A DNA stretch of 41,301 nt from the NCBI GenBank assembly GCA_027448865.1, contig DAIDMR010000230.1, positions 1-41,301 of the forward strand, in the 5' to 3' direction. This DNA comes from Vampirovibrio sp. GTDB taxonomy: Bacteria > Cyanobacteriota > Vampirovibrionia > Vampirovibrionales > Vampirovibrionaceae. The notes under the pieces were generated by a model, which was not told the origin of the DNA, made no database searches, and saw only the letters and a list, made by a program, of their open reading frames with translations. Below, piece after piece: positions 2,398 through 39,410 of this stretch (its first letter is position 1; every line of letters starts with the position of its first letter). The translations under genes were made by a program, and so were the position numbers.

Positions 2398-3030
2398 ATG
2401 GAATCTTTGAGCAAGATGGCCCATGTTCGTTTTTACGAGAAAAACCCCACGGTTAAAGAGGCCGTGACTTCTCTATTCGGGTTTTCCGGGGATATCCGCT
2501 CGATCCTGGCCAAAGGGATGTGTTCCATCGCTGAAAGTGACTTCAATGCCCACATTCGTATCAACGACTTAAAAAGTCTGGGCAAGGAAAAAGCCCTGGC
2601 CCTTTACAAGTCCCGGGCCAGGCGCCGCGACTATGATCTGGACCCGTACCTGTCCAAAGCGATGAACTATTTAATGATTCTGGAGCCTTCGGATCAGTTT
2701 TTTCTGGCCGTGAAAGTGAACGATATGATTCGGGTGGTACGGGAGTTTATGGACTTGTGCCAGGTTTACTCCCAAAAAATCCAGCTGGCCATTGTGGAAC
2801 GCCTGACCGGAACCTACGTGCAAGGCGGATTACACGAAGCTCAGGATTTACTCTCGATCATCCACGGAAAATTCCATAAATATTTTTCAGGCATGAAAAA
2901 GGCATCCGCTGAAGCCTCGCAACCCTCTACGGCAACCCAGGCCGGGCTTGAGGCCAAAACAGCCAGCGAGTATGCCGCGGAGGCCATCACCGATCAAAGT
3001 ACCGGTATGCGCATTTGTCTTGAAAATTAG
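2398..3030 (+). CDS. unknown protein, paralog of the 38674-39204 product
   Basis: Long ORF; shares LKSLGxEKxLxLxxSxxxRRxYDxxPxxxKAxNxxxxLxxSDQ with the minus-strand ORF at 38674-39204. Confidence 0.65.
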   Translation: MESLSKMAHVRFYEKNPTVKEAVTSLFGFSGDIRSILAKGMCSIAESDFNAHIRINDLKSLGKEKALALYKSRARRRDYDLDPYLSKAMNYLMILEPSDQFFLAVKVNDMIRVVREFMDLCQVYSQKIQLAIVERLTGTYVQGGLHEAQDLLSIIHGKFHKYFSGMKKASAEASQPSTATQAGLEAKTASEYAAEAITDQSTGMRICLEN

Positions 3031-4498: not shown

Positions 4499-4627
4499 GT
4501 TAGCCCTCCCAAGGTTTGTATATGAATTATGTCTCGGCCATAATCTGGAAATCTAAAGACCAGAATCCTCATTTCAGGGCGATTTCCTGAAAACGCGCTT
4601 TCCGGGGCTCTAAAAGTCAAATTTTAA

Positions 4628-4800
4628 GGTCAGTATCCCGTCTCAACACCTTTCTAAAACTGCGTGCAGCTCAAACAAGGTGTGGAACGGCCTCCGGCAA
4701 AGCCACCATGACTTGAATCTGGGGGACATGAATTTTGGGCGTAATTTCTGAACCCGCTGTACTCAAACAGTTACAAACGTCTTGAGGCGGAATCCGTACC
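4628..4800. repeat. long imperfect inverted repeat (hairpin element), copy 1
   Basis: 5' arm cccgtctcaacacctttctaaaactg pairs with 3' arm cagttacaaacgtcttgaggcgg; inner sequence shared with copy 2 (5121-5284). Confidence 0.65.
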
Positions 4801-5120: not shown

Positions 5121-5284
5121 CAATTATGAGGCAAGACTGCCTTCCCAACACGTTTCTAAAACTGCGTGCAGCTCAGACAAACCCAGGGTGCTTTTGGCAA
5201 AGATGCCCAGCCTGAAGTTTTAACTCGCTGTATTCATACAGTTACAAACGCGTTGGGAAGGCAGCCTTGCCTAATATTATTGAG
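5121..5284. repeat. long imperfect inverted repeat (hairpin element), copy 2
   Basis: 5' arm aggcaagactgccttcccaacacgtttctaaaactg pairs with 3' arm cagttacaaacgcgttgggaaggcagccttgcct. Confidence 0.7.
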
Positions 5285-5362
5285 ACAATAAAAAGTTGAT
5301 GCTTGTTGTCGCAAAGTCTTTTTCATATACTGTAACGCAAGAACAGGAAATTTCTGACTGTC

Positions 5363-5434
5363 GGGCGCATAACTCAGCGGTAGAGTGCCACCTTCACACG
5401 GTGGAAGTCGTAGGTTCAAGTCCTACTGCGCCCA
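5363..5434 (+). tRNA. tRNA-Val (anticodon CAC), intact; left attachment site
   Basis: 72-nt cloverleaf: acceptor GGGCGCA/TGCGCCC, D arm ACTC/GAGT, anticodon stem CCACC-TTCACAC-GGTGG (anticodon CAC), T arm GTAGG-TTCAAGT-CCTAC. Confidence 0.9.
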
Positions 5435-6618
5435 TATTTTTAAATCCCGAAACGCCTCACTCCCACAGGATTTTAGAGAATCCGGGGAGTTTTTTAGTTT
5501 CTGAGGATTCTCAATCTCAAAGCGGCATTTCTGCTAAAAAGAGCCAAACTTCCACAAAAGTTCAACATGTTTCGGGGCTACTTTCTGTAAGCCAGGTCAG
5601 CGAAAAGCTGGGTGTTTCTTCCATGACTGTCACACGCTGGTGTGAATCTGGAAAACTTCCGGCCACGGCCAAACCTTACGGTAAGAAAATCAGCTGGTTT
5701 ATTAGTCCTTTGGCTTTGGACATGCTGGCCCGTGAGGAAAAGATTGAACTTGAAGCGAAAAAAACAAAAAACATCAAGCCCCACAGTGAATATATGGCTC
5801 AATGGGTTCAGGCTATGGCCACCGGCACGCTGAATGGCAAAATCTACACAAAGCGTTCAATTGAGGAATATGTCCGCTATGTCAGGGCTTATCTGGAGAA
5901 TCATGCCGTGGTCACCGCTTCCGGGCTAAAATCTGAGCTGATGAGCATTCCTGCCGTGATGTTCGCCAAACGGGAAAAATATTACAAGGGTGTTCTATGC
6001 TTTGCTAGGTTCCTAGTGCAATGTGAATTTCTGGAACCTGAGTTTTTAAACTCAATCAAACCACTATTCCCAAAGCGCCATTTACCCCCCAAAAGAACCG
6101 TGGTGGATGAGACGGGGGTTGAAAACCTATTGATGGCCTGTAAAACAGTTCAGGAACGCTTAATAATCCTATTGTTAGCTCACACTGGCCTACGGGCAAG
6201 TGAGGCATGCTCCCTGGTGTGGGGGGATGTCGATATGGAGCAAGGCTTTATTGTTGTTCGCTTGGGCAAGGGGAATAAAACCCGCAAGGTTGGCATATCT
6301 GCTCGATTGATGGAGGCGTTACAGGATCAAAAGCAAGCCACTTGTCACGTTGGGACTAAACCTGTCCTGTTGGATAAGCATGGGCAAGCCATGCACCGGA
6401 GTGGTCTACTGCAAAGGCTCAAGCGTTTGGGGCGGATGGCCAGTGTTATAGTTTCCCCTCATGCCTTGCGCCGGGCCTTTGTGACTATCAATGCCAATAA
6501 AGGCCGCCCCCTGGTTATCTTGCAACGCTCTTGCGGACATTCTGACATCAAGACGACCATGAGCTACTGTCGGACGGCTGAGCAGGAGGTCATCGAGGCC
6601 ATGAAAGGGTGGGATTGA
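5434..6618 (+). CDS. int: tyrosine recombinase/integrase, body (intC) of a gene split by integration; N-terminal MerR/excisionase-like HTH plus catalytic domain
   Basis: LLSVSQVSEKLGVSSMTVTRWCESGKLP HTH; catalytic HTGLRASE (R), GKGNKTRKV (K), PHALRRAF (HxxR), CGHSDIKTTMSY (H, Y). No ATG/GTG/TTG in frame from 5434 to 5622; the frame is open through the tRNA back to 5296. Confidence 0.9.
   Translation: MFLNPETPHSHRILENPGSFLVSEDSQSQSGISAKKSQTSTKVQHVSGLLSVSQVSEKLGVSSMTVTRWCESGKLPATAKPYGKKISWFISPLALDMLAREEKIELEAKKTKNIKPHSEYMAQWVQAMATGTLNGKIYTKRSIEEYVRYVRAYLENHAVVTASGLKSELMSIPAVMFAKREKYYKGVLCFARFLVQCEFLEPEFLNSIKPLFPKRHLPPKRTVVDETGVENLLMACKTVQERLIILLLAHTGLRASEACSLVWGDVDMEQGFIVVRLGKGNKTRKVGISARLMEALQDQKQATCHVGTKPVLLDKHGQAMHRSGLLQRLKRLGRMASVIVSPHALRRAFVTINANKGRPLVILQRSCGHSDIKTTMSYCRTAEQEVIEAMKGWD
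5550..5568. promoter_or_regulatory. candidate arm-type integrase-binding site (P' side)
   Basis: TTCCACAAAAGTTCAACAT, 18/19 identical to 23222-23240 TTCCAAAAAAGTTCAACAT across the att core. Confidence 0.5.
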
Positions 6619-6649
6619 AAAATAAGTTCATTGAGTGTACCATATTTAA

Positions 6650-6967
6650 ATGAAGCCGACTTACGACCTAAAGCTTGTTAAAGAACTGATCCGCAATGGA
6701 CATTATCGAATAACCCTTCGGGCTCTGAGCGACGCTCAAAGTGACTTCGATTTTGATGCGGAGAGGATTTTGGAAGAAATTCTCGGGCTAAAACTACAAG
6801 AGCTAGACAAGACTATGCCTTCAGAGAAAATGCCAGATCTTTGGCAGGATGTTTACAAAAAGCGGGTCATCGTCCATGCCAGAGTCCAAACGGCCTATAT
6901 CAAGCTCAATATTGTAAGGCCTAGTAATAAAGAGACAGCCGTTGTGATCTCGTTCCACAAAGCCTAA
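6650..6967 (+). CDS. mqsR: MqsR-like toxin
   Basis: LQELDKTMPSEKMPDLWQDVYKKRV...AYIKLNIV...AVVISFHKA resembles MqsR (DFYKSM...WQDVYRPRL...YLKITV...LIVSFKE). Confidence 0.75.
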   Translation: MKPTYDLKLVKELIRNGHYRITLRALSDAQSDFDFDAERILEEILGLKLQELDKTMPSEKMPDLWQDVYKKRVIVHARVQTAYIKLNIVRPSNKETAVVISFHKA

Positions 6968-6986
6968 AAGGAAAGGAGCCAAACCA

Positions 6987-7472
6987 ATGAGCAGAACAAC
7001 TGACAAGGTAAAAGCAATGGGTGATTGCGCGGTTTGTGGCGCCTCGACTCTCTTGGTGGTTGTGCCCGAATGGGAGGTTCCCGGCTCCGCCACAAAGCCT
7101 GCCGTGGTTGTCCAGGCGGTTGAGTGCCTTGAATGTGAAAGCTGCGGGGAGCGCTACCTGGAGCCTGAGCAAGTCCGTGCTTTTGAGAAGAAAGTGATAG
7201 AGGCTCAACGTGCTGCAAAGAACCTGCTCAGTGCGGCAGAGATTTTGCAAATTCGTGAGTCTTTGGGCATTAACAAGGAGCGCCTTGAAAAAATCCTGAA
7301 TTTAAACCCAAAATCTTTCTACCGTTGGGAAAACAGCCTGTCTATTCAATCTGACGTAGTGGACACGATGCTGAGAATCCTGCGTAAGAACCCAAACGCA
7401 GTTTATGCTTTAGCGGAAGAGCGGCATATTCCCCTAACCGCATTAAAAGGCCGCCCTAAAAAAGCTGGATAG
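6987..7472 (+). CDS. mqsA: MqsA/YgiT-like antitoxin (zinc finger + HTH)
   Basis: CAVCG...CLECESCGERYLEPEQV zinc-binding N-terminus and HTH LRESLGINKERLEKILNLNPKSFYRWE-type C-terminus, directly downstream of the toxin. Confidence 0.8.
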   Translation: MSRTTDKVKAMGDCAVCGASTLLVVVPEWEVPGSATKPAVVVQAVECLECESCGERYLEPEQVRAFEKKVIEAQRAAKNLLSAAEILQIRESLGINKERLEKILNLNPKSFYRWENSLSIQSDVVDTMLRILRKNPNAVYALAEERHIPLTALKGRPKKAG

Positions 7473-7479
7473 CCAAGAA

Positions 7480-7512
7480 ATTTCATGGGGCGCACTCGAA
7501 GCCCCATGAAAA
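7480..7512. terminator. bidirectional terminator-like hairpin between convergent TA operons
   Basis: TTTCATGGGGC-gcactcga-GCCCCATGAAA. Confidence 0.55.
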
Positions 7513-7522
7513 CAGGGATAGA

Positions 7523-7858
7523 TTAGGCTTTTGCCCCTGAAGCGTCGAGTTTCACTTCTAAATGAGCGCCAAGCACTTTAAGAATGGCTCGGATATTCGA
7601 CCACTTGGGGTTGCCTTTTTCTGACAGTAAATCATAGATATGCTCCCGTGAAACACCGGCCACGGTAGCCACTTCCGCCATGCTCAGGCCATAGGCTGCC
7701 GCTACATGCTTAACGGCTATCAGGAAAGCTGCTGGATCGTCATCTTCAAGAGCTACATTCAGATAAGCCTGGGCTAATTCAGGATCTTCTTTTAAGGATT
7801 GGTGAAGCCCCTCATCATGAAGAACAGAACGGGGTGGTGCTTTCTTTTTAGTGGCCAT
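7523..7858 (-). CDS. HTH antitoxin (HigA-like addiction module antidote)
   Basis: HTH MAEVATVAGVSREHIYDLLSEKGNPKWSNIRAILKVLGAHLEV; paired with the RelE/HigB-like ORF. Confidence 0.8.
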   Translation of the reverse strand: MATKKKAPPRSVLHDEGLHQSLKEDPELAQAYLNVALEDDDPAAFLIAVKHVAAAYGLSMAEVATVAGVSREHIYDLLSEKGNPKWSNIRAILKVLGAHLEVKLDASGAKA

Positions 7859-8189
7859 CGTTTCGGCTCCTGTAATCTTTTAAGTAAGTCTGGGCTTTGT
7901 TAATGTCGGCTTGTTGCCCATTTTTTGAGCCTCCCAGTAGGAGAAGAACAATTTTTTCACCTTCCAAGCCGTAATAAACTCGGTAGCCAGGGCCAAAATT
8001 CAGCTTGAGTTCAAAGACTCCGCCGTCTACACTCTCGGAAACACCAAAATTACCGGCTTCCATTTTGGTAACACTGTTCATGATTCGGGCCTTGGTGAGC
8101 TTATCCTTGATAGTGTTTAGCCATTCGGTGTAAGGTTCATGGCCTTGAGGCGTAACGTAGCGCTCAAGTGTTTTAGCTTGACCTTGCAT
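7848..8189 (-). CDS. RelE/HigB-like toxin (addiction module killer, Gp49-like)
   Basis: FELKLNFGPGYRVYYGLEGEKIVLLLLGGSKNGQQADINKAQTYLKDYR motif; overlaps the antitoxin start. Confidence 0.85.
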   Translation of the reverse strand: MQGQAKTLERYVTPQGHEPYTEWLNTIKDKLTKARIMNSVTKMEAGNFGVSESVDGGVFELKLNFGPGYRVYYGLEGEKIVLLLLGGSKNGQQADINKAQTYLKDYRSRNDGH

Positions 8190-8246
8190 ATTTGCAGTGT
8201 AGGATAAAACCTACAAGTTTGTAATCATTTTGTTGTTGATTATCGA

Positions 8247-9575
8247 TTAAGGCATTAGTTTTTCCCTAAACTTTGTCAAGTGAGGCACGAACAGAAGGGG
8301 GATCTCCATCTGGACGCCATCCCGCTGTTTGGCGATAGTCAAAGAAGCCACCCCGGTTGGCTTACGGTCTTCCATGCGCTCAATGCTGGTGAAAAGCACA
8401 ATATCGCTGTCCATTTCAATGCCGCCTGAGTCTCTAAGGTCGGAGAGCATGGGCTTCTTGTCCTGCCGGGCATCCACCGCCCGGTTCATCTGGGCCAGTT
8501 GGATAATGGGCACTTGAATGGTTTTGGCCAGAGTCTTTAAACGGCTGGTGATGGCCTGAATTTCATAGGCCCGGTTCTGTTGCTTGCTGTTGGGCTCTGA
8601 GGCAATCAAACCAATATGATCCACCACTATCAAGGCCAAATCAGGCCGCCGCTTTTTGGCTTTCATGATTTTGGACTGAATGGCCGCCAAGGTTTGACCG
8701 GCGGCATCCTCTATCATGAGATCCTTTTGGAACGGCTTCCAAGCAATGGCCGCTATCTTCAAGGCGTCCAAGTCTTTGGGGTTGCCTGCCTTAGCCTTGA
8801 TGGCCCGCTTCATTAACTCGCTGGCGGTCATTTCCAGGCTGATATAAAGCACCGGCTTCCGCTCTTGAAGCACCACATGACAAGCCACGTTCAACGCAAA
8901 AGCGGATTTACCCCCACCGGGTCGGGCAGACACGGTGATCAACTGCCAGGGCTGAAAGCCGTGGGTTGAATTATCCAGTGTGGGGAACCCCGTGGATAAT
9001 CCGGTAACCCCATTGGGACTGTTGGCCTCCGCTTCAAGCTGTTGAATGGCCTCCTCAATGGGATCGGATGTCCCCATAGTGTCGGTGGGGAAGGTTTCCG
9101 ATATTAGGTAAAGTAGATTTTCCGCCTCTTCCAGATAGGTGGACTGTTCCCGCTGGGCTGCTGAGTCGGCAATATCCTGACAGGCCAGAATCACTTCCCG
9201 CCGCCGGGCCAGATCAATCAAGAGCTTTGACCAGTGCTTCAGGCTGGCATCATTTAGAACTTGGACATCGGGATTGCTGCCAAGCATTAAATCATAGAGA
9301 TAGGCTGACCCTTCGGCTATGGCCAAGCTGCCGGAAACCTCCAGAGTCTGGGTTAAGGAAATGGGCTCTATAGGGACTTGCTGTTCAAAGCAGTCCAGCA
9401 TAGCCTGAAAGATTGCCTGATGAACGTTTGAGTAAAAGTGTTCAGGCTGAAGCAGGCCCACCACTTGGGGAAACAAAGCAGGATATTGCAGTAGCCCACA
9501 GAGAATGCCCTGCTCTACCGCCACAGAATGAGGAAGACGTTCAATTGGCTGAAGCTCTGTCTCAAAATCATGCAT
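8247..9575 (-). CDS. dnaB: replicative DNA helicase DnaB-like
   Basis: LITVSARPGGGKSAFALNVA (Walker A), LIVVDHIGLI (Walker B), MLSDLRDSGGIEMDSDIVLF; N-terminal PHSVAVEQGILCGLLQYP. Start taken at MHDFETE. Confidence 0.92.
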   Translation of the reverse strand: MHDFETELQPIERLPHSVAVEQGILCGLLQYPALFPQVVGLLQPEHFYSNVHQAIFQAMLDCFEQQVPIEPISLTQTLEVSGSLAIAEGSAYLYDLMLGSNPDVQVLNDASLKHWSKLLIDLARRREVILACQDIADSAAQREQSTYLEEAENLLYLISETFPTDTMGTSDPIEEAIQQLEAEANSPNGVTGLSTGFPTLDNSTHGFQPWQLITVSARPGGGKSAFALNVACHVVLQERKPVLYISLEMTASELMKRAIKAKAGNPKDLDALKIAAIAWKPFQKDLMIEDAAGQTLAAIQSKIMKAKKRRPDLALIVVDHIGLIASEPNSKQQNRAYEIQAITSRLKTLAKTIQVPIIQLAQMNRAVDARQDKKPMLSDLRDSGGIEMDSDIVLFTSIERMEDRKPTGVASLTIAKQRDGVQMEIPLLFVPHLTKFREKLMP

Positions 9576-10545
9576 TTGAGGGCTCCTCCAGGCAGCCTTC
9601 CAGGTGGGCGACCGGATAATAATCAAAGGTCTTCTTGTGGCTCAATCCGCTGGGGGATTCCGGGCGAATTTCGAGTTCCTCTGAACGAAACCATTCGGGG
9701 GTGTACTTATGCCGGATGAATGGGAACTTTAACAAAGCCTCTGATTGGCTGCTCAGATCCTCGATGGCATGCGTTTTTGGTGCTTCGGGTGTCCAAGCCT
9801 CTAATTTATTTTTAAGCGTCGTTTTGAACCACTGGGGCGCTGTTGCGTTTTTGGACACCGCAAGATCGCAAGTGTCTCGCCATAACCGAAGGATTTCCGG
9901 TTTGGGAATATCGGGTTTGGTTTTTGCCAGTTCCTGAAGTTGGATTTTCAGGAATCCCTGAATCCACCCAGTGTTTTGATGATTGGGGCTGTTTAGGGAG
10001 GACAGGTAAAGCATGCCCTCCTGAGCCAATGCTTGGTTGGGGTCTATTTCATTTTCCAAACCGATCACACTCACACCTGAACCGATAGGTTCGGATTGCA
10101 GGTTAGAGTTTAAGGTTAAAGGGTTAAGGGTTAAGGCCGGGCTCGGCATCGCCTTGGTTGTGCTTAGGCACTGCCTAGGTTGTGCCTCGGCATCACCTAG
10201 GTTTGCCTTGGAAATTGGACAGGGTGGAATCTCGCTCTCTGCCTCACGGATGTGTGGTTTTTGATGCTTATGGAAGTTCTCGATTTGAATAAACTTCTCC
10301 CCTTCGATCTGGTAACGGGTGATAAACCGGCCTGAACTATCAGCAAGTTCATTTAAGAGAGGTTCTATATCAATGGCTTCAAATGGGAACAGTTCGGCCT
10401 TTATTTTTAATGGCCGGTCTTCTAATCGGCCACGGCGATCAGCAAGCAGCCATAGACCTGCAAATAATAAACGGGCATAGGGGCTCACCTGAACCAGAAA
10501 TTCGTTTTTATAGAATCCTGGCTTTAAAAGTCTGGCTCTGGCCAT
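9568..10545 (-). CDS. phage replication-initiator-like protein (replication protein O / replisome organizer type)
   Basis: N-terminal MARARLLKPGFYKNEFLVQVSPYARLLFAGLWLLADRRGRLEDRP typical of phage replisome organizers; overlaps dnaB start. Confidence 0.7.
   Translation of the reverse strand: MARARLLKPGFYKNEFLVQVSPYARLLFAGLWLLADRRGRLEDRPLKIKAELFPFEAIDIEPLLNELADSSGRFITRYQIEGEKFIQIENFHKHQKPHIREAESEIPPCPISKANLGDAEAQPRQCLSTTKAMPSPALTLNPLTLNSNLQSEPIGSGVSVIGLENEIDPNQALAQEGMLYLSSLNSPNHQNTGWIQGFLKIQLQELAKTKPDIPKPEILRLWRDTCDLAVSKNATAPQWFKTTLKNKLEAWTPEAPKTHAIEDLSSQSEALLKFPFIRHKYTPEWFRSEELEIRPESPSGLSHKKTFDYYPVAHLEGCLEEPSNA
10101..10208. repeat. iteron cluster inside the initiator gene; candidate replication origin
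   Basis: GGTTAA-type 7-8 bp repeats (10101-10136) followed by three tandem 22-bp units 10143-10164, 10165-10186, 10187-10208. Confidence 0.5.
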
Positions 10546-10576
10546 TGGGCAAAATCTCCAACAGGTTCGGAAAATA

Positions 10577-10594
10577 GGAGGGCCGAAGCCCTCC
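10577..10594 (-). terminator. stable hairpin with cUUCGg loop (minus strand)
   Basis: Minus strand GGAGGGCttcgGCCCTCC between two minus-strand genes; no strong T-tract. Confidence 0.35.
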
Positions 10595-10646
10595 CTGTTC
10601 CGTGATAATATGTGGGTAACTTAAATTTGCTTCTAACGGTCGTAGG

Positions 10647-10829
10647 CTAATTGCCTGCGGCTTTTGTTTTACTGCCCTTGGGCTTTGGCTTCCCGGAGTT
10701 GTGGATGTGAAACAAGCCAGCTTGCATCAGGTGGGCATAGAGCTTCGACTCACGGAAGTCCTGCCAGGCTTTATCCTCCAAGGGGAGGTAAAGCTTCAAC
10801 TCAGCGTAAGGCTTTGAAAACTTGGACAT
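10647..10829 (-). CDS. hypothetical 60-aa protein
   Basis: ORF in the tightly packed minus-strand operon. Confidence 0.5.
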   Translation of the reverse strand: MSKFSKPYAELKLYLPLEDKAWQDFRESKLYAHLMQAGLFHIHNSGKPKPKGSKTKAAGN

Positions 10830-10831
10830 GG

Positions 10832-11089
10832 TTATTGTTCCTCTCTCTTATGCGCTTTCAACCACTCACCGAGGAAGGCCCCGGCTTGAAGCATTTCGTA
10901 AACGTCCACCTCTTTGTGAGGATCTACATTCATCAGGCAAAACCCCTCAAAGAAGGTGAAATGGGCGATTTCAGTAATGGGCTCTAGGGTGTCCGCCGCA
11001 TGCTCCAGTTGCTGAAACTGGTCGGGGTGTTCAGCTTGTAAAATGCGGACAAATTCGCTGGGGCCCGAAGGCAGGAAATAGGTTTTCAT
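10832..11089 (-). CDS. hypothetical 85-aa protein
   Basis: ORF adjoining neighbours in the operon; preceded by aaggagcaccacc on the minus strand. Confidence 0.6.
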   Translation of the reverse strand: MKTYFLPSGPSEFVRILQAEHPDQFQQLEHAADTLEPITEIAHFTFFEGFCLMNVDPHKEVDVYEMLQAGAFLGEWLKAHKREEQ

Positions 11090-11101
11090 GGTGGTGCTCC
11101 T

Positions 11102-11311
11102 TTAGTTATTGGTTGGACTTTTAAATTCAAGGACTTTGGCGGGTTTGTGTTCGGCGGCACGGCGGGCCATAACCTTCTGATGAAGCTGGGTAATGTTTTC
11201 TTCAAAGATTGCCATTGCAGCTTGCAGGTCACCGACTATCTTTTGATAACTGCTGTTTTCCTCTGCCGTCATCTGCTCTTCGAGCAGATTTTTGAAGATT
11301 CCTTCACGCAT
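11102..11311 (-). CDS. hypothetical 69-aa protein
   Basis: ORF overlapping the upstream gene end. Confidence 0.55.
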   Translation of the reverse strand: MREGIFKNLLEEQMTAEENSSYQKIVGDLQAAMAIFEENITQLHQKVMARRAAEHKPAKVLEFKSPTNN

Positions 11312-11930
11312 GATTAGAGTCCTCTTTTTGGTTTTTGAGTTCTGATAACGGTCGTAAAATGCCTTCCCGGTGCAGGGTGTGAACTCTTACGGTGTACCGG
11401 TGCCCTTCATCTCTTAAATGAGGCTTTACATCTGCCCGAAAGCTCCAGCCAAACATTTCAATTCGAGTTTCCAGTCCGGCCAGTTCTACATGAGCAAAAA
11501 TGTAACCATCGGCAAGGTGGGTAAAACGGTTGGTTTTACTGATTTTCAGCCTGAGGCTTTCTGATTTACTAGATTTAACATCCAGCTTCAAGCCTTCCAC
11601 TACAACGTCATAGCCACCATCTGTTCCTTTAAGCCCAGCCAGAAACTCAGAAATGATTTTTTCTGCTGTAAACCCTAAGTAACGTTGAACGGCTATTTCC
11701 CCCAATAGGCCAATATAGTCGGCTTCTGGGTTCCACCGTGAAGTGGTTTTCCAGTCCCGTTTCCTTAGCTCAGACACCTCTCGGATAATCTCAGACGCAT
11801 CCCTAGAGAATCGCAGAATGGGTCTGTCACCTTCAAAAATGTAGCTGGATTCGATGGCAATCTTGAAAGCCTTTTCCCCCCTTGGGGTAAGCCCCCGAAA
11901 GCCGGGCCGGATGGTAATCAATTCAGACAT
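11304..11930 (-). CDS. PD-(D/E)XK nuclease-like protein
   Basis: GLLGEIAVQRYLG...GTDGGYDVVVEGLKLDVKSSK resembles the E...D...DVK signature. Start taken at MSELITIRPG with aaagga upstream. Confidence 0.5.
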   Translation of the reverse strand: MSELITIRPGFRGLTPRGEKAFKIAIESSYIFEGDRPILRFSRDASEIIREVSELRKRDWKTTSRWNPEADYIGLLGEIAVQRYLGFTAEKIISEFLAGLKGTDGGYDVVVEGLKLDVKSSKSESLRLKISKTNRFTHLADGYIFAHVELAGLETRIEMFGWSFRADVKPHLRDEGHRYTVRVHTLHREGILRPLSELKNQKEDSNHA

Positions 11931-11977
11931 AGTTCTATCCTTTATTTCTTGGTTACAGGGGTGAATTTTCAAAGTAC

Positions 11978-12012
11978 AAAAGCCGCCTCACGAATGTGTC
12001 AGACGGCTTTTT
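11978..12012. terminator. terminator-like hairpin within the minus-strand gene cluster
   Basis: aaaagccg...cggctttt. Confidence 0.6.
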
Positions 12013-12088
12013 GAAAGGTCGCTGAGCATCAATCACTCGGTGACCTTGTTATCTCATTTAAGGTTGAGGGAATCAGGACTGTAGAAGG

Positions 12089-13051
12089 TTAGATTTGGGT
12101 AGTTTTCGGGTAGCAATTTTGCTCTATTTCCCAGTCTAATCTTATTTTCCCTTGATTTAATCTCAGTAGAATATGACCAGGCACAATCCTTTTAAAATCT
12201 GACTTGATGGCATTGACCTGCGCTTTGAATTGGTCACAATCCATTTCCAAGTCTCTGCTAAGAGTGTCGATATCAGCCGTGCCACCCTTTTCAATCAAAC
12301 TTTTTAATAGTTTGTGCTTATCATAGCCTCTTCTCAGAAACGGCTGTTTACCGAAGTAGACCTGTGGCTCTTCAAATTCATCAAGACCTATGTAGAAGGT
12401 GTTTGAACGGTTGTTTGGACATTGCTGCTCGTTTTGTCCAGATTGGTTGAGGGTGTTTTCTCCCTCAGCAGGGGGTAAATCAATATCAGCAGTGGCTTCC
12501 TCAATTTTGAGGTCGTTGGTTTCTGTGTCCAGTAAGTTTCCGGTCAGTTCGCTCAATCCCTCGAAAAAGCTTTCTGCCTCAAAATTCAACCACCAAAAGC
12601 CTTGGATCATTGAATCTTTGAAAAGGGCGACTGCTACAATTCGACAAAGACCCTCTAGTTCGGATTCTGAAGGAGATAGCGTAATGTCTGAGAGGTTCAG
12701 GAAAGCTAGGACACTTCGGCTTAAAATCTGTTTTAAGTAGATAGGTGCTTCTACAGGGTAGCCTTTAATCCTTTCGGGGAGTGATTGAATTACAAATTCA
12801 AGAAATTCTGGTTGAAAAGCTTGCCACTGAAGGGGGCCTTGGTTTTTGAATCTCTCTATTGCAAGGTCGTCAAAATCCCGATAAACCATCAACACAAGTT
12901 TTCGGGCGATGTTTTGTTTTTGCTCGTCGGACAAATTTTCAAGGGAGGGTAAGTCAATAAACGGCAATGCGACTTTCAGGAAAGCCAGCTTCCAGTCTGT
13001 GGCCGTTTTCAGGTTCCAGATAGATAGATCGTTTGATGGGGCTTGACTCAT
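12089..13051 (-). CDS. unknown protein with a possible C-terminal winged-helix domain
   Basis: Long ORF; C-terminal KLLKSLIEKGGTADIDTLSRDLEMDCDQFKAQVNAIKSDF looks wHTH-like. Confidence 0.6.
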   Translation of the reverse strand: MSQAPSNDLSIWNLKTATDWKLAFLKVALPFIDLPSLENLSDEQKQNIARKLVLMVYRDFDDLAIERFKNQGPLQWQAFQPEFLEFVIQSLPERIKGYPVEAPIYLKQILSRSVLAFLNLSDITLSPSESELEGLCRIVAVALFKDSMIQGFWWLNFEAESFFEGLSELTGNLLDTETNDLKIEEATADIDLPPAEGENTLNQSGQNEQQCPNNRSNTFYIGLDEFEEPQVYFGKQPFLRRGYDKHKLLKSLIEKGGTADIDTLSRDLEMDCDQFKAQVNAIKSDFKRIVPGHILLRLNQGKIRLDWEIEQNCYPKTTQI

Positions 13052-13120
13052 TAATAGCCGTCCTCGTGGCTCTTTGACCTTTGCGTTTTGGGAAATCTTA
13101 CGGGCGCAAATCTGCGCCGG

Positions 13121-13585
13121 TTACTTTTTCTTTGACCTGATTAAAACTTCGCCTTCCTCCTCATCCTCCCAGGAGATCAGTTTAAAATCTTTTAAAACCT
13201 CGAAAATCATATCCAGGGCTTCTTCTGGCCTGACCTTATCTAAGTCCGCAAAGAAAAACCCGCCAATATCCACCGCCAAGTCAAACCGAAATGCGATGTC
13301 CTGTCTGGCTTTCTTCTCTGGGAAATCAACCTGCCGCCAAGTTACATAATCATTGCCTTCCACCGGCTTAAAGTACTTCAGAATGTCTTTAAGCCAAGCG
13401 TCGAACTGCTCATAAAACTCGCTGTCTTCATAAGATGTGTCTGTGGACTTGAGATAAATCCACCGGGCATCGATGAACTTGCGCTGAGCCTTCCCTTTTT
13501 CAACCAACAGGCAGGGAATATCCAGCAATTTGTCATTGAACTGAACGTAAACAGGTTTTTTCTCTGGGGGTGGGGGCTTGGTCAT
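13121..13585 (-). CDS. hypothetical 154-aa protein
   Basis: ORF in operon, abutting its neighbour. Confidence 0.65.
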   Translation of the reverse strand: MTKPPPPEKKPVYVQFNDKLLDIPCLLVEKGKAQRKFIDARWIYLKSTDTSYEDSEFYEQFDAWLKDILKYFKPVEGNDYVTWRQVDFPEKKARQDIAFRFDLAVDIGGFFFADLDKVRPEEALDMIFEVLKDFKLISWEDEEEGEVLIRSKKK

Positions 13586-13822
13586 TTAATCAGCCTTTGG
13601 CTTGGGTTGTTCTGCCAGCTTCTCTTTGAGGGATGCAATAAAGCCATCAAAGGCCACGGCGTCCAGTAGCTTCATGGCCGCTTGATCTTCTGGGTTTGGC
13701 CACATCAAGGCAATTGCGGCATCCCGATCCCGTTCGGCCAAGGCGATAAACTCGGCATCGGTTAGTTCGGCAACGGGTTCCGCCAGACACTCCTGAATAG
13801 GTGCTTCCTTAACAAGGGACAT
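13586..13822 (-). CDS. hypothetical protein, tandem paralog of the 13809-14072 product
   Basis: DAEFIALAERDRDAAIAL...AFDGFIASLKEKLAEQ matches LADFVTLAQHDRKTALQV...AFDGYVVFLNERQAKQ. Start taken at MSLVKEA. Confidence 0.6.
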   Translation of the reverse strand: MSLVKEAPIQECLAEPVAELTDAEFIALAERDRDAAIALMWPNPEDQAAMKLLDAVAFDGFIASLKEKLAEQPKPKAD

Positions 13823-14072
13823 GCTGTTTCTCCTGCTTGGCTTGGCGTTCATTCAAAAAGACAACATAGCCATCAAAGGCCTGCTCTAATAAAGGACGGT
13901 TGGTTTCATCCAGGTAAGCAGGGGGAACGTCTTTCATAAAGACCTGAAGGGCAGTTTTCCGGTCATGCTGGGCCAAGGTAACAAAGTCCGCCAAGTCCAT
14001 GCCCAGATTGTCCTGAGTCAGGCATCCCTGATCCTCTGGCATGCTGATGGCAGGATCATGCTTATCGCACAT
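13809..14072 (-). CDS. hypothetical protein, tandem paralog of the 13586-13822 product
   Basis: See paralog; ATG directly abuts the upstream stop at 14073. Confidence 0.6.
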   Translation of the reverse strand: MCDKHDPAISMPEDQGCLTQDNLGMDLADFVTLAQHDRKTALQVFMKDVPPAYLDETNRPLLEQAFDGYVVFLNERQAKQEKQHVPC

Positions 14073-14219
14073 CTACAAGTCTCCCTTGAAAGCATCTTCT
14101 TTCCGCCGGGCTTCTTCCTTGGCCTTGAATCGGCCTTTATTGTTCCCTAGGAAGCGATTTTGAGTGCACATAGTGCAACGGACATTGCGGCGGGTTTTCT
14201 TGCGCTTGAAATTGGCCAT
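14073..14219 (-). CDS. 48-aa basic protein MANFKRKKTRRNVRCTMCTQNRFLGNNKGRFKAKEEARRKEDAFKGDL
   Basis: Below track cutoff; stop abuts the next ATG; CxxC and many Lys/Arg. Confidence 0.5.
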   Translation of the reverse strand: MANFKRKKTRRNVRCTMCTQNRFLGNNKGRFKAKEEARRKEDAFKGDL

Positions 14220-14254
14220 AGCTTGGTCCTGTCTCTTAAAGGCTCTTTGGTAGA

Positions 14255-14521
14255 TTAGCTGCTACGGAGAAACCAGTAATGGTTTCCTTCGCGGTTATTT
14301 TCCTTATGGAAAGAATAAAATTCGTTGGCTGCCTCAGAGGCACTCATATCTTCTGGAATGCGTTCACTGGCAAACATAGCATCATCCATGAAGATAAAAG
14401 CTCCGGAAGCTGAGATTTCATGTCGATTTTTTAATGCCTCATCTGGTTCTAGGGTTTGGTTAATAGCGTTAGCCAGGAACATTGTTTGAACAATCATCAA
14501 AAATTGAAGGGGCTTACTCAT
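14255..14521 (-). CDS. hypothetical 88-aa protein
   Basis: ORF in operon. Confidence 0.5.
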   Translation of the reverse strand: MSKPLQFLMIVQTMFLANAINQTLEPDEALKNRHEISASGAFIFMDDAMFASERIPEDMSASEAANEFYSFHKENNREGNHYWFLRSS

Positions 14522-14537
14522 TCTGTTATTTACCTCT

Positions 14538-14747
14538 CTAGTTTTCTAAAAAAGCTTCTTCAGGGTGTTTTTGTAGGACTTCAACGGCAAGGTCTATAAG
14601 TTCACCAATGCTTTTGTCGGCCTCTGCCTTTTGATTTTCAAGCCAAACCTTAGTTTCGGGTGCTACTCGGCAGGTAAGAGTCTGTCGTTTTAAGTCATCT
14701 GAGATCGCAGGCCTGCCACCACCTCTCCATCCACCTCTAGGGGACAT
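14538..14747 (-). CDS. small ribbon-helix-helix-like protein (69 aa)
   Basis: MSPRGGWRGGGRPAISDDLKRQTLTCRVAPETKVWLENQKAEADKSIGELIDLAVEVL resembles RHH/CopG-like regulators; first gene of the minus-strand operon. Confidence 0.5.
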   Translation of the reverse strand: MSPRGGWRGGGRPAISDDLKRQTLTCRVAPETKVWLENQKAEADKSIGELIDLAVEVLQKHPEEAFLEN

Positions 14748-14939
14748 AAAAGAATCCTCTTTGTTTTTTGTTATTCAAATATTCTACAGAGTTAAAATCA
14801 ACTTATAAAGCTTTTTATAGTTTTTTGCATTGCTAATATTAAGATTTTTAAATATTTGTTTTTCGTGTTGCGTAAAACAAGATGATGGGCTATATTCTTA
14901 TTGTTAAATGCAATGCTTTAAACATAAAGGCTTATCAAA

Positions 14940-15119
14940 ATGGAACATCTGCAAGACCAGCATTTAAATGAACCCCGTGACACCTGGACACCGTGGCAGG
15001 CTGATGAGGAAATGCTGTGGGGCATCCTGACCGGCCAACTCTTCCCCCCTGCCGATGAGACTCCGGTTTGGGTGGATGTGGTGATGCCCACTCCCTACAT
15101 TTCGGCTTTGGCCGCATAA
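14940..15119 (+). CDS. 59-aa protein MEHLQDQHLNEPRDTWTPWQADEEMLWGILTGQLFPPADETPVWVDVVMPTPYISALAA
   Basis: ATG ORF just below track cutoff, first on the plus strand after the AT-rich divergent region. Confidence 0.4.
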   Translation: MEHLQDQHLNEPRDTWTPWQADEEMLWGILTGQLFPPADETPVWVDVVMPTPYISALAA

Positions 15120-15351
15120 AAAGAGCCCTTGAGATAGAAGCTCCCAAGGACTCAAGTCCAATCGCAAAGGTCAATCATTGAAAGGACAAAACAAGCCTAA
15201 CACGAAACCCCGTAATCACACACCATCGTTAGAACATCAATAAGAGAGAGGTAGAGAGAGAATGCACCCCCAACCCGCTAACGGGCAAGCTTGCGCTGCC
15301 CTGAAAACCTATAACAGTCGCACCGAAAGCAACCCACAGGAGGAAAACACC

Positions 15352-16002
15352 ATGGCCTTGAGAGCCGAATCCCTGAAACCTGAATTAAATTTGCTGGTGT
15401 TACCTGGCACCCCATCCGACAATCTAAGTGATGAAGACTGGGCTGAAAAGGCCTTGCGTTCAAAGCTGCCGATTGAGCGTTTAGAGTTTATGCGCCAAAT
15501 GGTGGCCCGGCATCCTGAGGAGCAAGCGCAACAGGCCCGCTATATTGAGCTGCTGGAAGGTCTGGTTCGAGAGTGGGAAGGGGATTACAGTAACCCGATT
15601 ACCAGCTATGGGGTGCTGGCTCACTTCCGGCAACTGCCAGAGGATGTTTTTCTGGAGCGCTTGGGCGCTGTCTTCCAGAAGGCAAAAATCAAGCTGAATG
15701 AAGACCAGGCTCGGGAAGCTCACCGGGATATGGTAAACATTGAATTGCCAGTGTTGCCTCAGCAGGAACGGGAGGCGCTTTATTTGCTGGGGGAAAGTAA
15801 CACCCCTACCCAGAATCGCATCTTTCTGGAACTGTTACAGGATATGACGGGGCAGCTCATTTTCGACTATTGCGACACGCTGGATCTTTTCGATGTTTTT
15901 GAGACGAAAGACTGGCTGGCGGAAACGGTCATTCAAGCCCTGAAAAGGTTGAGGCCCGATTTTCGAGAAATGCTAATATCCACCCTGAACGGCATGAAGT
16001 AA
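15352..16002 (+). CDS. unknown protein (216 aa)
   Basis: ORF start MALRAESLKPELN preceded by caggagg Shine-Dalgarno. Confidence 0.7.
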   Translation: MALRAESLKPELNLLVLPGTPSDNLSDEDWAEKALRSKLPIERLEFMRQMVARHPEEQAQQARYIELLEGLVREWEGDYSNPITSYGVLAHFRQLPEDVFLERLGAVFQKAKIKLNEDQAREAHRDMVNIELPVLPQQEREALYLLGESNTPTQNRIFLELLQDMTGQLIFDYCDTLDLFDVFETKDWLAETVIQALKRLRPDFREMLISTLNGMK

Positions 16003-16197
16003 GTCCTAAAGCGCCTGAATAGAAAGAAAGCCCACTGAGCTAAGCCGCTTGGTGGGCTTTCGAGAGGTCGGGGTAAAATTTCGATAACTGACTCGGAGAT
16101 TTTACCGAGTGCAATTTTTCGCTCAGCCTTCCTCTTTTTTACGAAGACGAAAATTCGATTTTCCTATAAAACACACTGCCATTGGGCCTTTTTAAAT

Positions 16198-16209
16198 TGA
16201 GAATTCTCA
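16198..16209. promoter_or_regulatory. palindromic operator-like site TGAGAATTCTCA, copy 1
   Basis: Perfect 12-bp palindrome within repeated tttaaattgagaattctcaca. Confidence 0.5.
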
Positions 16210-16264
16210 CACAATTAAATGGATCAATATATTTATGATATTGAGAAAACACTTTTTAGGTCAA

Positions 16265-16273
16265 TGCTATAAT
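16265..16273 (+). promoter_or_regulatory. extended -10 promoter TGCTATAAT
   Basis: Perfect TGnTATAAT upstream of the non-coding structured region. Confidence 0.55.
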
Positions 16274-16279
16274 TGGGTT

Positions 16280-16740
16280 CGGGCTTGCAAAGGTGTGTTT
16301 ACAGTACATTGCTGCCGCAGGCCAAAAGCAATTTAAATCTATAAAATAAAAACATGAACGGCCAAGTTAAGCCGCAGAGCAGGTGGGCGAGTGAAACGAG
16401 GACGGCTGCGAAGAGGCCCCGTCGAGCAAAGCGAGACCCTGAAAAGCTTACCTTTTTACAGTGTAAATAAAAAAAAGAAAAAGCCTACTTGATGCGTTCC
16501 CGCAGCGGAGCGAGGAAACGCATGCCTCACCGGGGAGGTGGTTCCCCTGGAAGGGGCGGAGGGGTAGTTTAACTGAAAACCTGTGATTGGGCCATCCTAT
16601 TTTTTAAACAGCCGAAAAATTTTAAAATTGAGAATTCTCACAAAAAACATCTAGATCGCCGCAATTTTGCGGAGACTATTAACCACCCCAATTTTGGGAG
16701 CGTTAGATTTAACAGCGGGCGTCTCCCAGTTTGAAGGCCG
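16280..16740 (+). ncRNA. candidate structured non-coding RNA region
   Basis: No substantial ORF; many stems: CGCAG/CTGCG, GTCGAGCaaaGCGAGAC, ATGCGTT/AACGCAT (16492-16523), CCCCtggaaGGGG, CCGCAATTTTGCGG, CCCAATTTTGGG, GTTA/TAAC enclosed by GGAGAC/GTCTCC (16671-16726). Confidence 0.4.
16629..16640. promoter_or_regulatory. palindromic operator-like site TGAGAATTCTCA, copy 2
   Basis: Same palindrome and flanks as 16198-16209. Confidence 0.5.
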
Positions 16741-16844
16741 GGTGAAATGTTTGATCGGATATGAAAAAAGGTTAATTGGCTCTAGTCAATAGGCTAAGAA
16801 CATTGGAGAATAAGGCTGACCTGAGGAACTATGGAGGAGCATCT

Positions 16845-17015
16845 ATGAAGCAATTGGATAAAGAAATGGACGCAATCGACTCATTGAACATGGTTTTAAA
16901 CCGCATTGCATCGAGACTGCCCTTTGATTACCCCGACCTTTATGAGCGCTACCTAAAGCGGTGGCACCCGGAAGATTACGAGGCTTACAAACGGAGCCAA
17001 GAAACTCAAGAATAG
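16845..17015 (+). CDS. hypothetical 56-aa protein
   Basis: MKQLDKEMDAIDSLNMV... with ggaggag upstream of ATG 16845; the longer ORF from 16776 is less likely. Confidence 0.55.
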   Translation: MKQLDKEMDAIDSLNMVLNRIASRLPFDYPDLYERYLKRWHPEDYEAYKRSQETQE

Positions 17016-17027
17016 AGCCAGCTTAAG

Positions 17028-17063
17028 ACAATCTTAAACTTGCTCACTTGGGTTTAAGATTGT
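17028..17063. terminator. 12-bp perfect inverted repeat hairpin
   Basis: ACAATCTTAAAC-12 nt-GTTTAAGATTGT; no T-tract, so terminator status uncertain. Confidence 0.35.
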
Positions 17064-17114
17064 ACGCTTATCATTAGGAATGATTAGAAATGGCTGAGTG
17101 TGGGAGTAAAGTTC

Positions 17115-17252
17115 ATGGGCAATATCCACGATTACACTGACAGCTTGGTTCGTTTAGTTTCTCAGTTTATGACGGTCTGCTCTGTGGATCCTGGCATTTC
17201 TGAAGCTGAATATCAGTCGATTCGAGAGCGTTTGTTAAGGGCCATGATCTAA
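17115..17252 (+). CDS. hypothetical 45-aa protein MGNIHDYTDSLVRLVSQFMTVCSVDPGISEAEYQSIRERLLRAMI
   Basis: ATG ORF below cutoff, convergent with the 17253 gene. Confidence 0.35.
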   Translation: MGNIHDYTDSLVRLVSQFMTVCSVDPGISEAEYQSIRERLLRAMI

Positions 17253-17714
17253 TTAAGCCTCTTTCATGGCTTCTTTTTGCTGATTCAGAACGACTGTGTG
17301 AATCCGATCCATCGCCTTTACGGCCACATCGGCCAAAGCAGCCAAATCCCGATCTTTGAGAGGCGTTTCATCGGCCAGCCGGGCATTGATGCGCTCAATC
17401 AACTTACGAAGTACACCGCTGGACTCTGTGAGCAGTGCGGCCAACTCGGTCACGTCCTGGTCAAGCGCTCTGTTAATCTTTTCCTGCCGCTCTTCCAGGT
17501 AGGCTTTCACACCCTCGTCAATGCGCTCCTTATGAGCGTTTATAATCTCACGCACCGCCTGCCGGGAATAACCGTGGCGTTTCATTAACTCCCCAATGGT
17601 CAGGCCAGCAATGCGATCCTGAACCACCTTTTCATGCTTGCCGGTTTCTTTGACCGACTGCGCTTTTGGCGTTGGCTTCTTGGCTTTACTTTTTATAGTT
17701 TTGTCTTTTTGCAT
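17253..17714 (-). CDS. HTH protein; possible terminase small-subunit-like
   Basis: HTH DRIAGLTIGELMKRHGYSRQAVREIINAHKE followed by coiled-coil-like helices; TerS assignment tentative. Confidence 0.5.
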   Translation of the reverse strand: MQKDKTIKSKAKKPTPKAQSVKETGKHEKVVQDRIAGLTIGELMKRHGYSRQAVREIINAHKERIDEGVKAYLEERQEKINRALDQDVTELAALLTESSGVLRKLIERINARLADETPLKDRDLAALADVAVKAMDRIHTVVLNQQKEAMKEA

Positions 17715-17863
17715 GCTTATGCCGCTTTATGCCCTTCTCGCTCGGCTTTGAAATTGACTCGCTCACTGTACATCCCCTTTGCGAAAACGCTTTCGACAAT
17801 GGAAAAGAAAAGCCCCACCCACAATGAGGCCGTAGCGTAGTTATTAAATAGGGCGTCACTGCT

Positions 17864-18433
17864 TTGAAATTAGCAGAGATTATGCTTGATCGTGGCATGA
17901 CTGATTCTGAACTTGCCAAAGCCATAGGCGTTCAGCAATCAACCGTTTTCCAGTGGAAAGCAGGCGGCTTTTCTCCTAAGGCAAAGAGTCTGTTTAAGCT
18001 TTGCGACGTTTTAAATTGCTCCACCAATGAACTGCTTGGGTTCAACTCTGTTGATGTGTCTTTACCCGACTATCAAGGACAGCGCCTTTATGACGCCGTT
18101 ACTCAAGAAGGGCATTTTGATTCCCAGTTGATTCATATTTTTGCAACCCGGATCCGCAAATTTGCTGGGAAAGCCACCAGTCTTGAAACGTGGATGAGAC
18201 ATATTGCGGAAGCTCTCTATGAAATAGAACTCGCCAAGAGCGATCCTGCTTCCCTCTCCAACGCTCCTCGGGGCTTGGTTGCTGTACCGGATCAAGAGAC
18301 TGCCGATATTACTCAGCGCAATTTTGCGCCTACTTTTGTAGTGGAAGCATCTGATGTCAAGCCGCTCAGTCTGAGAAAGATTGATCGAAAGCGGCGTAAA
18401 AAAGCATTGCGCTTTAAATCTGGTAAAAACTGA
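17864..18433 (+). CDS. XRE-family transcriptional regulator
   Basis: MTDSELAKAIGVQQSTVFQWKAGGFSPKAKSLFKLCDVLNCSTNELLGF HTH. TTG 17864 or ATG 17881 start. Confidence 0.75.
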   Translation: MKLAEIMLDRGMTDSELAKAIGVQQSTVFQWKAGGFSPKAKSLFKLCDVLNCSTNELLGFNSVDVSLPDYQGQRLYDAVTQEGHFDSQLIHIFATRIRKFAGKATSLETWMRHIAEALYEIELAKSDPASLSNAPRGLVAVPDQETADITQRNFAPTFVVEASDVKPLSLRKIDRKRRKKALRFKSGKN

Positions 18434-18517
18434 AAGCCATTGGCCTTCTTTTGCCCGCCTCTCAATGAAAAAGCGGCTTTATTCTTTGCTCAATTGCAAA
18501 GCGTAAGGTGCTGATTC

Positions 18518-22870: not shown

Positions 22871-22892
22871 CTATTTTTCAGCACCTAACCTG

Positions 22893-22926
22893 AAACGCCC
22901 CGGCTAACACCGAGGGCATTTTTTTA
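22893..22926 (+). terminator. rho-independent terminator after tape measure gene
   Basis: gccccggctaacaccgagggcattttttt. Confidence 0.7.
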
Positions 22927-23221
22927 GCCAAAGTCACTGGGTAGGTTCTAGTTTTTCGGTAAGAAGCTTCACAAGCCTATTTTTAGGCAGGTAAAAGGGC
23001 TTTTATCCCTAATTTTAGAACGCTTTTGGATTTAAGCCCGCTAGAAAGCTTATAAGCAGGCGCTTCAAGTCTTGGCATGCCCTAACACCTAAAGTCTCGC
23101 TTGCGCTTCTTCCTGAGCCTCCTAGCATGGGGCAAAATTTAGAAGCCTTTGGTTACTTTTAGAAACTACTTACGCTTGCCCTGTGTTTTCGATTTCTTAT
23201 CAACGGGCCAAACAGGCCAAG

Positions 23222-23240
23222 TTCCAAAAAAGTTCAACAT
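23222..23240. promoter_or_regulatory. candidate arm-type integrase-binding site (P side)
   Basis: TTCCAAAAAAGTTCAACAT, 18/19 match to 5550-5568. Confidence 0.5.
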
Positions 23241-23266
23241 TTAAGCAAAGGTCAGGAGAAACCAAA

Positions 23267-23383
23267 ATGGCAAAACGCACGCCAGATGCGCATAACTCAG
23301 CGGTAGAGTGCCACCTTCACACGGTGGAAGTCGTAGGTTCAAGTCCTACTGCGCCCACCACTCTGTTACAACAAACAAACTAA
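23267..23383 (+). CDS. intN: N-terminal fragment of the split integrase (start codon + core peptide), running into chromosomal sequence
   Basis: caggag SD 8 nt before ATG 23267; MAKRTPDAHNSAVECHLHTVEVVGSSPTAP in the same frame through the core as intC; followed here by host-derived TTLLQQTN-stop. Confidence 0.75.
   Translation: MAKRTPDAHNSAVECHLHTVEVVGSSPTAPTTLLQQTN
23288..23357 (+). repeat. attR: 70-bp tRNA-Val direct repeat lacking the first two acceptor bases
   Basis: Identical to 5365-5434; 5' bases AT instead of GG disrupt pairs 1-72 and 2-71. Confidence 0.92.
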
Positions 23384-23672
23384 GCCCCCCACCTTGAAAT
23401 AAAAGCCCCGCCAATAGGGCTTTTTTCTGTTTTCAGGGCTCCACCGTTTTGAAACCTGAGAACCATCCTGATTTTGATTTGCTTGCCGTTTCACCACGCT
23501 GGGAGATACTCAATTCACTGTTCGGAATGTCTGCTCTAATAGCAGGCGTGGTTTTTCGGCGTCTTGGTAAACTACTTGGTAAACTATCTGTTTCTCGGGG
23601 GATTCCTTTCCAAATCAGGATATCCCCCCCACGATGTTCTGGAGGATAGACGACTACCCGCTAGGTTGCGGT

Positions 23673-38673: not shown

Positions 38674-39204
38674 TTACTGCCCAATGATCAAATCGCCCTG
38701 AGATTCCTTCAGATATTCCGCAGGCTTGGCATTTTGGGCCAATTTTTGACGAAGGGCTTTATTGAACGCCGAGGCCTGCTTAAGGCCGCCCTCGGTAAAA
38801 GCATCGGCCAGCTTCTGAAGCGTCTCTTTTTCTGGCGGCACGTTCAAGGCCTGATGAAGTTCAAAGTAGGAGAAAACACAATCCATCAGGTTTAAGACGT
38901 GCTTTGTCATTTTGGCCTGATCGCTTTCGGATAATATATAGACGTGGTTGACCGCCTTGTGGGTGGCGGGATTTTTATCATAATTGCGCCGTTTTTTCTG
39001 AGACTGGTGCAGTCCGAGTATTTTTTCGCTCCCTAAAGATTTGAGGTTGCTCATTAACTGGGAAACCTTATATTCTTTTTCCGCGATTTTGACCACACAG
39101 TCGCCAATAATTGTCTGGACATCATTTGGCAATGAGCCTAAAAAATGGATCGCCTTGGCCATCTCCGGCTTTTTGTCGTGCCAACGCGCCTGCTTCTTAC
39201 TCAT
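38674..39204 (-). CDS. unknown protein, paralog of the 2398-3030 product
   Basis: See 2398-3030. Start at MSKKQARW. Confidence 0.65.
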   Translation of the reverse strand: MSKKQARWHDKKPEMAKAIHFLGSLPNDVQTIIGDCVVKIAEKEYKVSQLMSNLKSLGSEKILGLHQSQKKRRNYDKNPATHKAVNHVYILSESDQAKMTKHVLNLMDCVFSYFELHQALNVPPEKETLQKLADAFTEGGLKQASAFNKALRQKLAQNAKPAEYLKESQGDLIIGQ

Positions 39205-39410
39205 ATCAATCATCACGCTCCCAACGATAATCCCAAAGCCCCAGCATAACACTCCCCGGGCTTTTGGAAATCCTCTATCGGAAGGAGTCCAATCCGATAG
39301 CAGAATCGGGTTGGCAGGATCTGAGCTATCGTTGCGTTCTCATTCAAGATTTTGGTGAGTCTGCCCTCACCCAGATTTTTAAAAAGTGCTAAGGTGCTCC
39401 TGGCTAAAAA

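Follow-up and report, generated by a model that had tools for sequence, protein, structure and literature searches.

A bacterial tyrosine integrase gene that probably loses its start codon on integration into a tRNA gene

Where does translation of an integrase begin when its reading frame runs back into a tRNA gene? The window, which is the whole 41,301-nucleotide stretch of Vampirovibrio sp. DNA analyzed here and comes from a bacterial MAG, raises this question. In its chromosomal form, the integrase frame runs without a stop from 5284 to 6618, straight across the tRNA, and the only in-frame ATG, GTG or TTG codons before the helix-turn-helix (HTH) domain are those at 5296/5299 and a GTG at 5401. 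The starts at 5296/5299 lie before the −10 box presumed for the host tRNA-Val promoter (TATACT, 5326–5331, + strand, assigned by eye; CATATACT is preserved in the empty site of congener G007), and GTG 5401 lies within the tRNA. The next in-frame start, ATG 5623, falls midway through the HTH, and the stretch from the tRNA end to the inside of the HTH contains no in-frame ATG, GTG or TTG. Judged from its sequence, the chromosomal integrase ORF has no plausible start.

The integrase gene belongs to an integrated element of 17.9 kb (5365–23357 including both core copies, + strand), bounded by an exact 70-bp direct repeat (5365–5434 and 23288–23357). ARAGORN called tRNA-Val(CAC) twice in the window, at 5363–5434 and 23286–23360. 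At attL (5363–5434, +), which the integrase gene adjoins, the tRNA has its host 5′ end restored and the core is open in the integrase frame. At attR (23286–23360, +), the tRNA copy has lost its own 5′ end and kept the host CCA end, and the host tRNA-Val terminator (23401–23430, +) has been shifted to this side. G007 carries the empty site, a single tRNA-Val around which both window flanks are contiguous and in which the overlap of the two flanks is exactly the core. The original prediction had the core covering 70 of 72 tRNA bases; that count leaves out the encoded CCA, which lies on the attR side, and the empty-site tRNA measures 75 nt. A core search of the 2.69-Mb, 353-contig genome found no copies other than the two in the window. 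The locus is a tRNA-targeting genomic island, with an intact tRNA at one end, a 3′ fragment at the other, an integrase gene beside the intact tRNA and an empty site in a relative.

A candidate start lies at the far end of the element. There, a Shine-Dalgarno (SD) sequence, AGGAGA (23254–23259, +), stands seven nucleotides before an ATG (23267) from which MAKRTPD is read into the core, in frame with int. The core itself reads AHNSAVECHLHTVEVVGSSPTAP without a stop at both element ends, in agreement with the original prediction that it is both a tRNA segment and a coding segment. Joining 23357 to 5435 yields one unbroken ORF comprising MAKRTPD, core, linker, HTH and catalytic domain. In the closed circle, the 5′ part of the gene (ATG, MAKRTPD and core-encoded peptide; 23267–23357, +) is in frame with the 3′ part (linker, HTH, core-binding and catalytic domains; 5435–6618, +), which is headless when integrated. 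The duplex energy of this SD is −7.4, which ranks it among roughly the top 3% of start-like triplets in the window, and a scan of 22860–23480 found no consensus promoter upstream of the far-end start. Sequence comparison places the element's attP within its own integrase gene, in the 5′ part. Insertion into the host tRNA gene therefore cuts the start codon off int and separates the gene in two, with the start at attR and the body at attL, 18 kb apart.

Our preferred and highly probable reading is a "suicidal" integrase, bacterial and directed at tRNA genes, whose gene gives up its start codon when the element integrates. In the circle, translation would begin from the SD and start codon on one side of attP and then run in frame through core and linker to the HTH and catalytic domains. 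Integration carries the start codon, the SD and the upstream region away to attR, leaving a headless int behind the host tRNA. Full-length integrase would be made from the circle only, and the integrated copy would be silent or yield a short form at most.

We collected related HTH-tyrosine integrases from searches of the family, class and order. Thirteen integrases, the window's included, are associated with eight tRNA types, and in all 13 the integrase frame runs open through the 3′ part of the tRNA. The 12 relatives lie at genes for tRNA-Asp (two; L004 and L006), tRNA-Arg (one; L005), tRNA-Glu (three; L007, L009 and L017), tRNA-Gly (one; L013), tRNA-Pro (three; L014, L015 and L016), tRNA-His (one; L053) and tRNA-Ser (one; L084). 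L016 resides in the window's own genome; at L005, the tRNA-Arg is represented by a 3′ fragment, and the complete gene lies about 1 kb upstream. The closest pair of integrases is 56–59% identical in protein. The fused members have a common ancestry, so that these counts are not fully independent. In the tree, all fused members fall in a Vampirovibrionales clade that also holds HTH-less and conventional members, and class-level relatives, whose SD-ATG stands immediately ahead of the HTH, form a clade of their own (100/100). One class-level integrase at tRNA-Asn (L065) is open across the tRNA but has in-frame starts downstream; no second end of its element was found. L052 has no neighboring tRNA and contains an internal stop, and L054 and the integrases at G003:C5 and G073:C33 proved not to be fused to a tRNA. 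Two scans of viral contigs turned up no intact free copies: the first found none, and the one close match of the second, L097, is HTH-less with its own start and was set aside. Phage and plasmid records contained no close relative. We also observed HTH-containing and HTH-less integrases in convergent, tail-to-tail pairs (G003:C5:4255-6271, G073:C33:12696-14661 and G007:C9:10049-12435).

Second element ends were located for seven relatives. Exact tRNA identity in these spans 32, 41, 48, 48, 55, 70 and 70 nt. The long core of the original prediction is exact at 70 nt in the window, but neither as a general length nor as a required feature did it survive comparison; the general att feature is the tRNA 3′ half. 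In all eight reconstructed circles (the window's and those of the seven relatives), the att site lies inside the integrase reading frame, with an in-frame start, mostly reading MAK..., 90–95 nt before the core 3′ end. The window and the seven two-ended relatives support the main claim of the original prediction, a tRNA-derived peptide at the integrase N-terminus in the circle. The chance of in-frame far-end starts in all eight is (1/3)^8. SD-like sequences at these starts (ggtcaggaga, aaagga, gaaagg, ggagg) vary in strength, with a mean energy of −7.0 kcal/mol in the eight elements against a background of −2.1 kcal/mol at the window's start-like triplets; L009 has the weakest, at −3.6. Members differ in phase between tRNA end and HTH, and all three phases occur; where the core is 70 nt long (three elements), no frame other than that of the integrase is open.

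Three relatives show further arrangements at their tRNA genes. L007 and L017 (G003:C29, about 150.6–174.2 kb) are tandem elements in one tRNA-Glu that is read in different frames, and this difference keeps the start codon of the first element from being fused to the integrase body of the second. At L015:1208-1360, the integrase frame reads tRNA-Pro and then, by eye, a 3′ fragment of tRNA-Ile, perhaps the trace of a target switch.

If the elements were decayed remnants, the open frame might simply be left from an ordinary integrase gene. Decayed second copies do exist, and the tape measure is the only clear virion gene of the window element. However, the 13 integrases retain intact catalytic residues, the 70-bp repeats are exact, a congener has the empty site, two elements stand in tandem in one tRNA-Glu, eight tRNA types are used, and the frame is conserved, which together make decay very improbable.

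Frame conservation extends across the linker, where the original prediction had proposed looking for it. All 13 linkers are free of stops, at a combined chance of about 1e-9 against dinucleotide shuffles, and the distance from a U-tract motif to the HTH tryptophan takes nine values, each a multiple of three, in the 11 of 11 elements in which it is measurable. In a further element, L063, the frame shifts by one base between linker and HTH, and its linker remains open in the other frame; L063 may be active, decayed or misassembled. A chance ORF is rejected by the 13/13 openness, the 8/8 in-frame far-end starts and the conserved linker frame.

These linkers also bear on another reading, in which the true start lies in or after the linker at a non-obvious codon and both the open tRNA frame and the far-end ATG are incidental. 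A GTG or TTG is present in the linkers of L004, L005, L006, L009, L013, L015 and L016, and class-level relatives start right before the HTH. Yet the tRNA-Val element of the window, L007, L017, L053, L084 and L014 have no in-frame linker start, the linker starts of the eight elements tested have weak SDs (−3.0 or weaker), and the reading leaves the far-end starts and the 11 frame-keeping linkers unexplained. We regard it as improbable and continue with start-codon loss on integration.

In the integrase protein, an HTH_17 domain of BldC/MerR-like type (PF12728; 5578–5733, +), resembling the BldC-type structures 6amk/6ama, precedes a Phage_integrase catalytic domain (PF00589, E 2e-30; 6103–6585, +). 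Both domains occur in 13/13 members, the catalytic residues R...K...HxxR...H...Y are invariant in all of them, and none of the 13 matched Phage_integr_3 (PF16795). We utilized AlphaFold2 (13 sequences) with the chromosomal ORF (window:5299-6615) as input, the first residues of which differ from those of the circle form. Residues 1–90 were predicted to be disordered (pLDDT about 30), with folded HTH, core-binding and catalytic domains. A tail of this kind would account for the tolerance of whatever peptide the tRNA encodes. The different tRNAs, the use of all three frames and the predicted disorder lead us to reject a conserved tRNA peptide that functions in the protein. The frame test suggested in the original prediction came out in its favor (11/11 linkers), but the peptide itself is not conserved (eight tRNA types, all three frames); since the tail is also predicted to be disordered, the translational constraint seems to be just an absence of stops in the right frame.

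The linker additionally contains a hairpin and U-tract resembling an intrinsic terminator inside the integrase reading frame (5459–5495, +; dG −14.5, with 1.7% of shuffles as low), although a simple terminator scan did not list it. A strong hairpin with a U-tract (dG −10.4 to −19.4) was present in 10 of the 12 fused members scanned (all except L084) and absent in L009 and L053; eight of the 10 lie 47–72 nt after the tRNA, between it and the int body. The region is read in frame as EAFFVS, GSFLVS, EGFFVS and similar peptides, and because the hairpin and U-tract encode this motif, its conservation may reflect the terminator and not the protein. In the chromosome, the tRNA transcript would be stopped by the linker terminator; in the circle, ribosomes coming from the far-end start would keep the terminator open, allowing RNA polymerase to pass. 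In this family of N-terminally split integrases, about 200 bp would then serve as tRNA gene, crossover site, tRNA terminator, arm sites and int coding sequence, and integration would act as a self-erasing switch, far-end translation suppressing the terminator in the circle and the chromosomal tRNA transcript terminating without a start codon. We put this combined model forward tentatively, at slightly below an even chance.

Some members carry starts inside the HTH, and a short integrase may therefore be made in the integrated state. L007 and L017 in particular have internal starts within the HTH preceded by good SD-like sequences. Under a two-isoform explanation, the circle would produce the full HTH integrase and the integrated copy a short, HTH-damaged form with its own role in excision or inhibition, on the model of Mx8, whose enzyme is altered and not lost on integration. 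The in-frame HTH-internal starts with SD-like sequences in L007 (−9.7), L017 (−10.3) and L004 (−5.9) speak for it, as do HTH-less relatives with complete catalytic domains in the same genomes and the in-frame starts noted near int(C) of archaeal pTN3-type integrases (PMC8371274). Against this, internal start position and SD strength vary, the SD is weak in the window (−3.9) and in L006, and the terminator precedes the internal starts in most members; we judge two isoforms to be unlikely, though a serious contender. With the start codon lost on integration, excision would need integrase from the circle or from another or related element, or else a short form from the internal starts. A need for integrase from elsewhere has been argued for archaeal cases (PMC8371274).

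The candidate arm-type sites also overlap the gene. AAAAGTTCAACAT, a 13-nt word, is common to a right arm inside the int coding sequence (5556–5568, +) and a left arm upstream of the SD (23228–23240, +), a match above all 300 shuffles. Left and right arms have common words of 12–17 nt in six of the eight elements, again above all 300 shuffles, at about −130 to −145 and +97 to +123. By eye, an M in the HTH recognition helix (tRNA-Val element, L004, L005, L007, L013) goes with CAACA arms, a K in a KTVxRWC context (L009, L016, L084, L052, L063) with GGACA arms, and L006 (KTIREWC) has AAGTGAAAC arms; AAGTTGGACAT is another arm sequence. This pairing by eye of helix residue and arm suggests that the HTH binds the arms.

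A 2021 review places integrases that disrupt their own gene only in archaea, with a single origin (PMC8371274). These SSV-type "suicidal" integrases (SSV1, SSV2, pTN3, pT26-2) are the closest kind to ours: they are tyrosine integrases with att inside their own gene, which integration splits, leaving the catalytic part beside a tRNA, and their tRNA targets likewise have a core of about 40–50 bp (PMC8371274). The window family differs in being bacterial, in combining PF00589 and an N-terminal HTH_17 without a PF16795 match, and in having its terminator and arm repeats in the coding region. What becomes detached in the window family is only a start codon, an SD and a short disordered tail; archaeal Int(N), by comparison, has a multimerization region.

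Among bacteria, Myxococcus phage Mx8 (and Mx9) encodes a tyrosine integrase with attP in the gene, which is altered by integration (PMC6070905, PMC4701971). The Mx8 attP lies in the 3′ part of the gene, where integration swaps a 112-residue C-terminus for 13 residues and leaves an active enzyme; in the window family it is the start codon that is lost. As the Islander paper points out, the integrases of Mx8 and SSV both reach across attP (PMC4383910). The promoter-switching elements ICEKp1/ICEclc resemble the window family in having int behind a tRNA and may share two further features with it, int of the circle being driven from the other end and terminator-like stem-loops before int that damp the tRNA-driven transcript (PMC13023037). 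Their stem-loops are reported to lie in the int 5′-UTR; in the window family, the reading frame takes in both core and terminator, and the start codon, too, is swapped. The rumA-type streptococcal ICEs are likewise bacterial with att in the integrase gene, but they use a serine integrase, undergo a C-terminal change and target a site that is not a tRNA (PMC4701971). Our literature search, which covered few subscription journals, found no report of a bacterial tyrosine integrase losing its start codon by tRNA integration. The family looks like a separate bacterial case, with a different integrase family and many tRNA genes; Mx8 is a precedent in bacteria, though of another type. The family offers a compact system for testing how start-codon loss locks integration, how tRNA targets are switched with an open frame and whether a terminator within coding sequence is overridden by translation. 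It also serves as an annotation warning, as gene callers will assign such integrases wrong or missing starts.

The remainder of the element (5435–23287) encodes a DnaB-like helicase, a replication initiator and a repressor. Its one clear virion gene, for a 1450-aa tape measure, lies beside attR, and there is a weak small-terminase match; the element may be a satellite or a deleted prophage. Directly behind the integrase is a MqsR/MqsA-like toxin-antitoxin pair (Pfam; window 6650–7472), and a second toxin-antitoxin-like pair, a toxin and a repressor-like protein (PHROGs), lies at 7523–8189. Near-identical repeats around TTGAGAATTCTCA at 16189–16214 and 16620–16645 are possibly repressor operators. 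In host DNA left of the tRNA, a 59-nt repeat (4620–4678 and 5122–5180) is 81% identical. The proteins encoded at 2398–3030 and 38674–39252, which flank the element, look alike by eye, with a common NLKSLG.EK stretch, and are probably paralogues.
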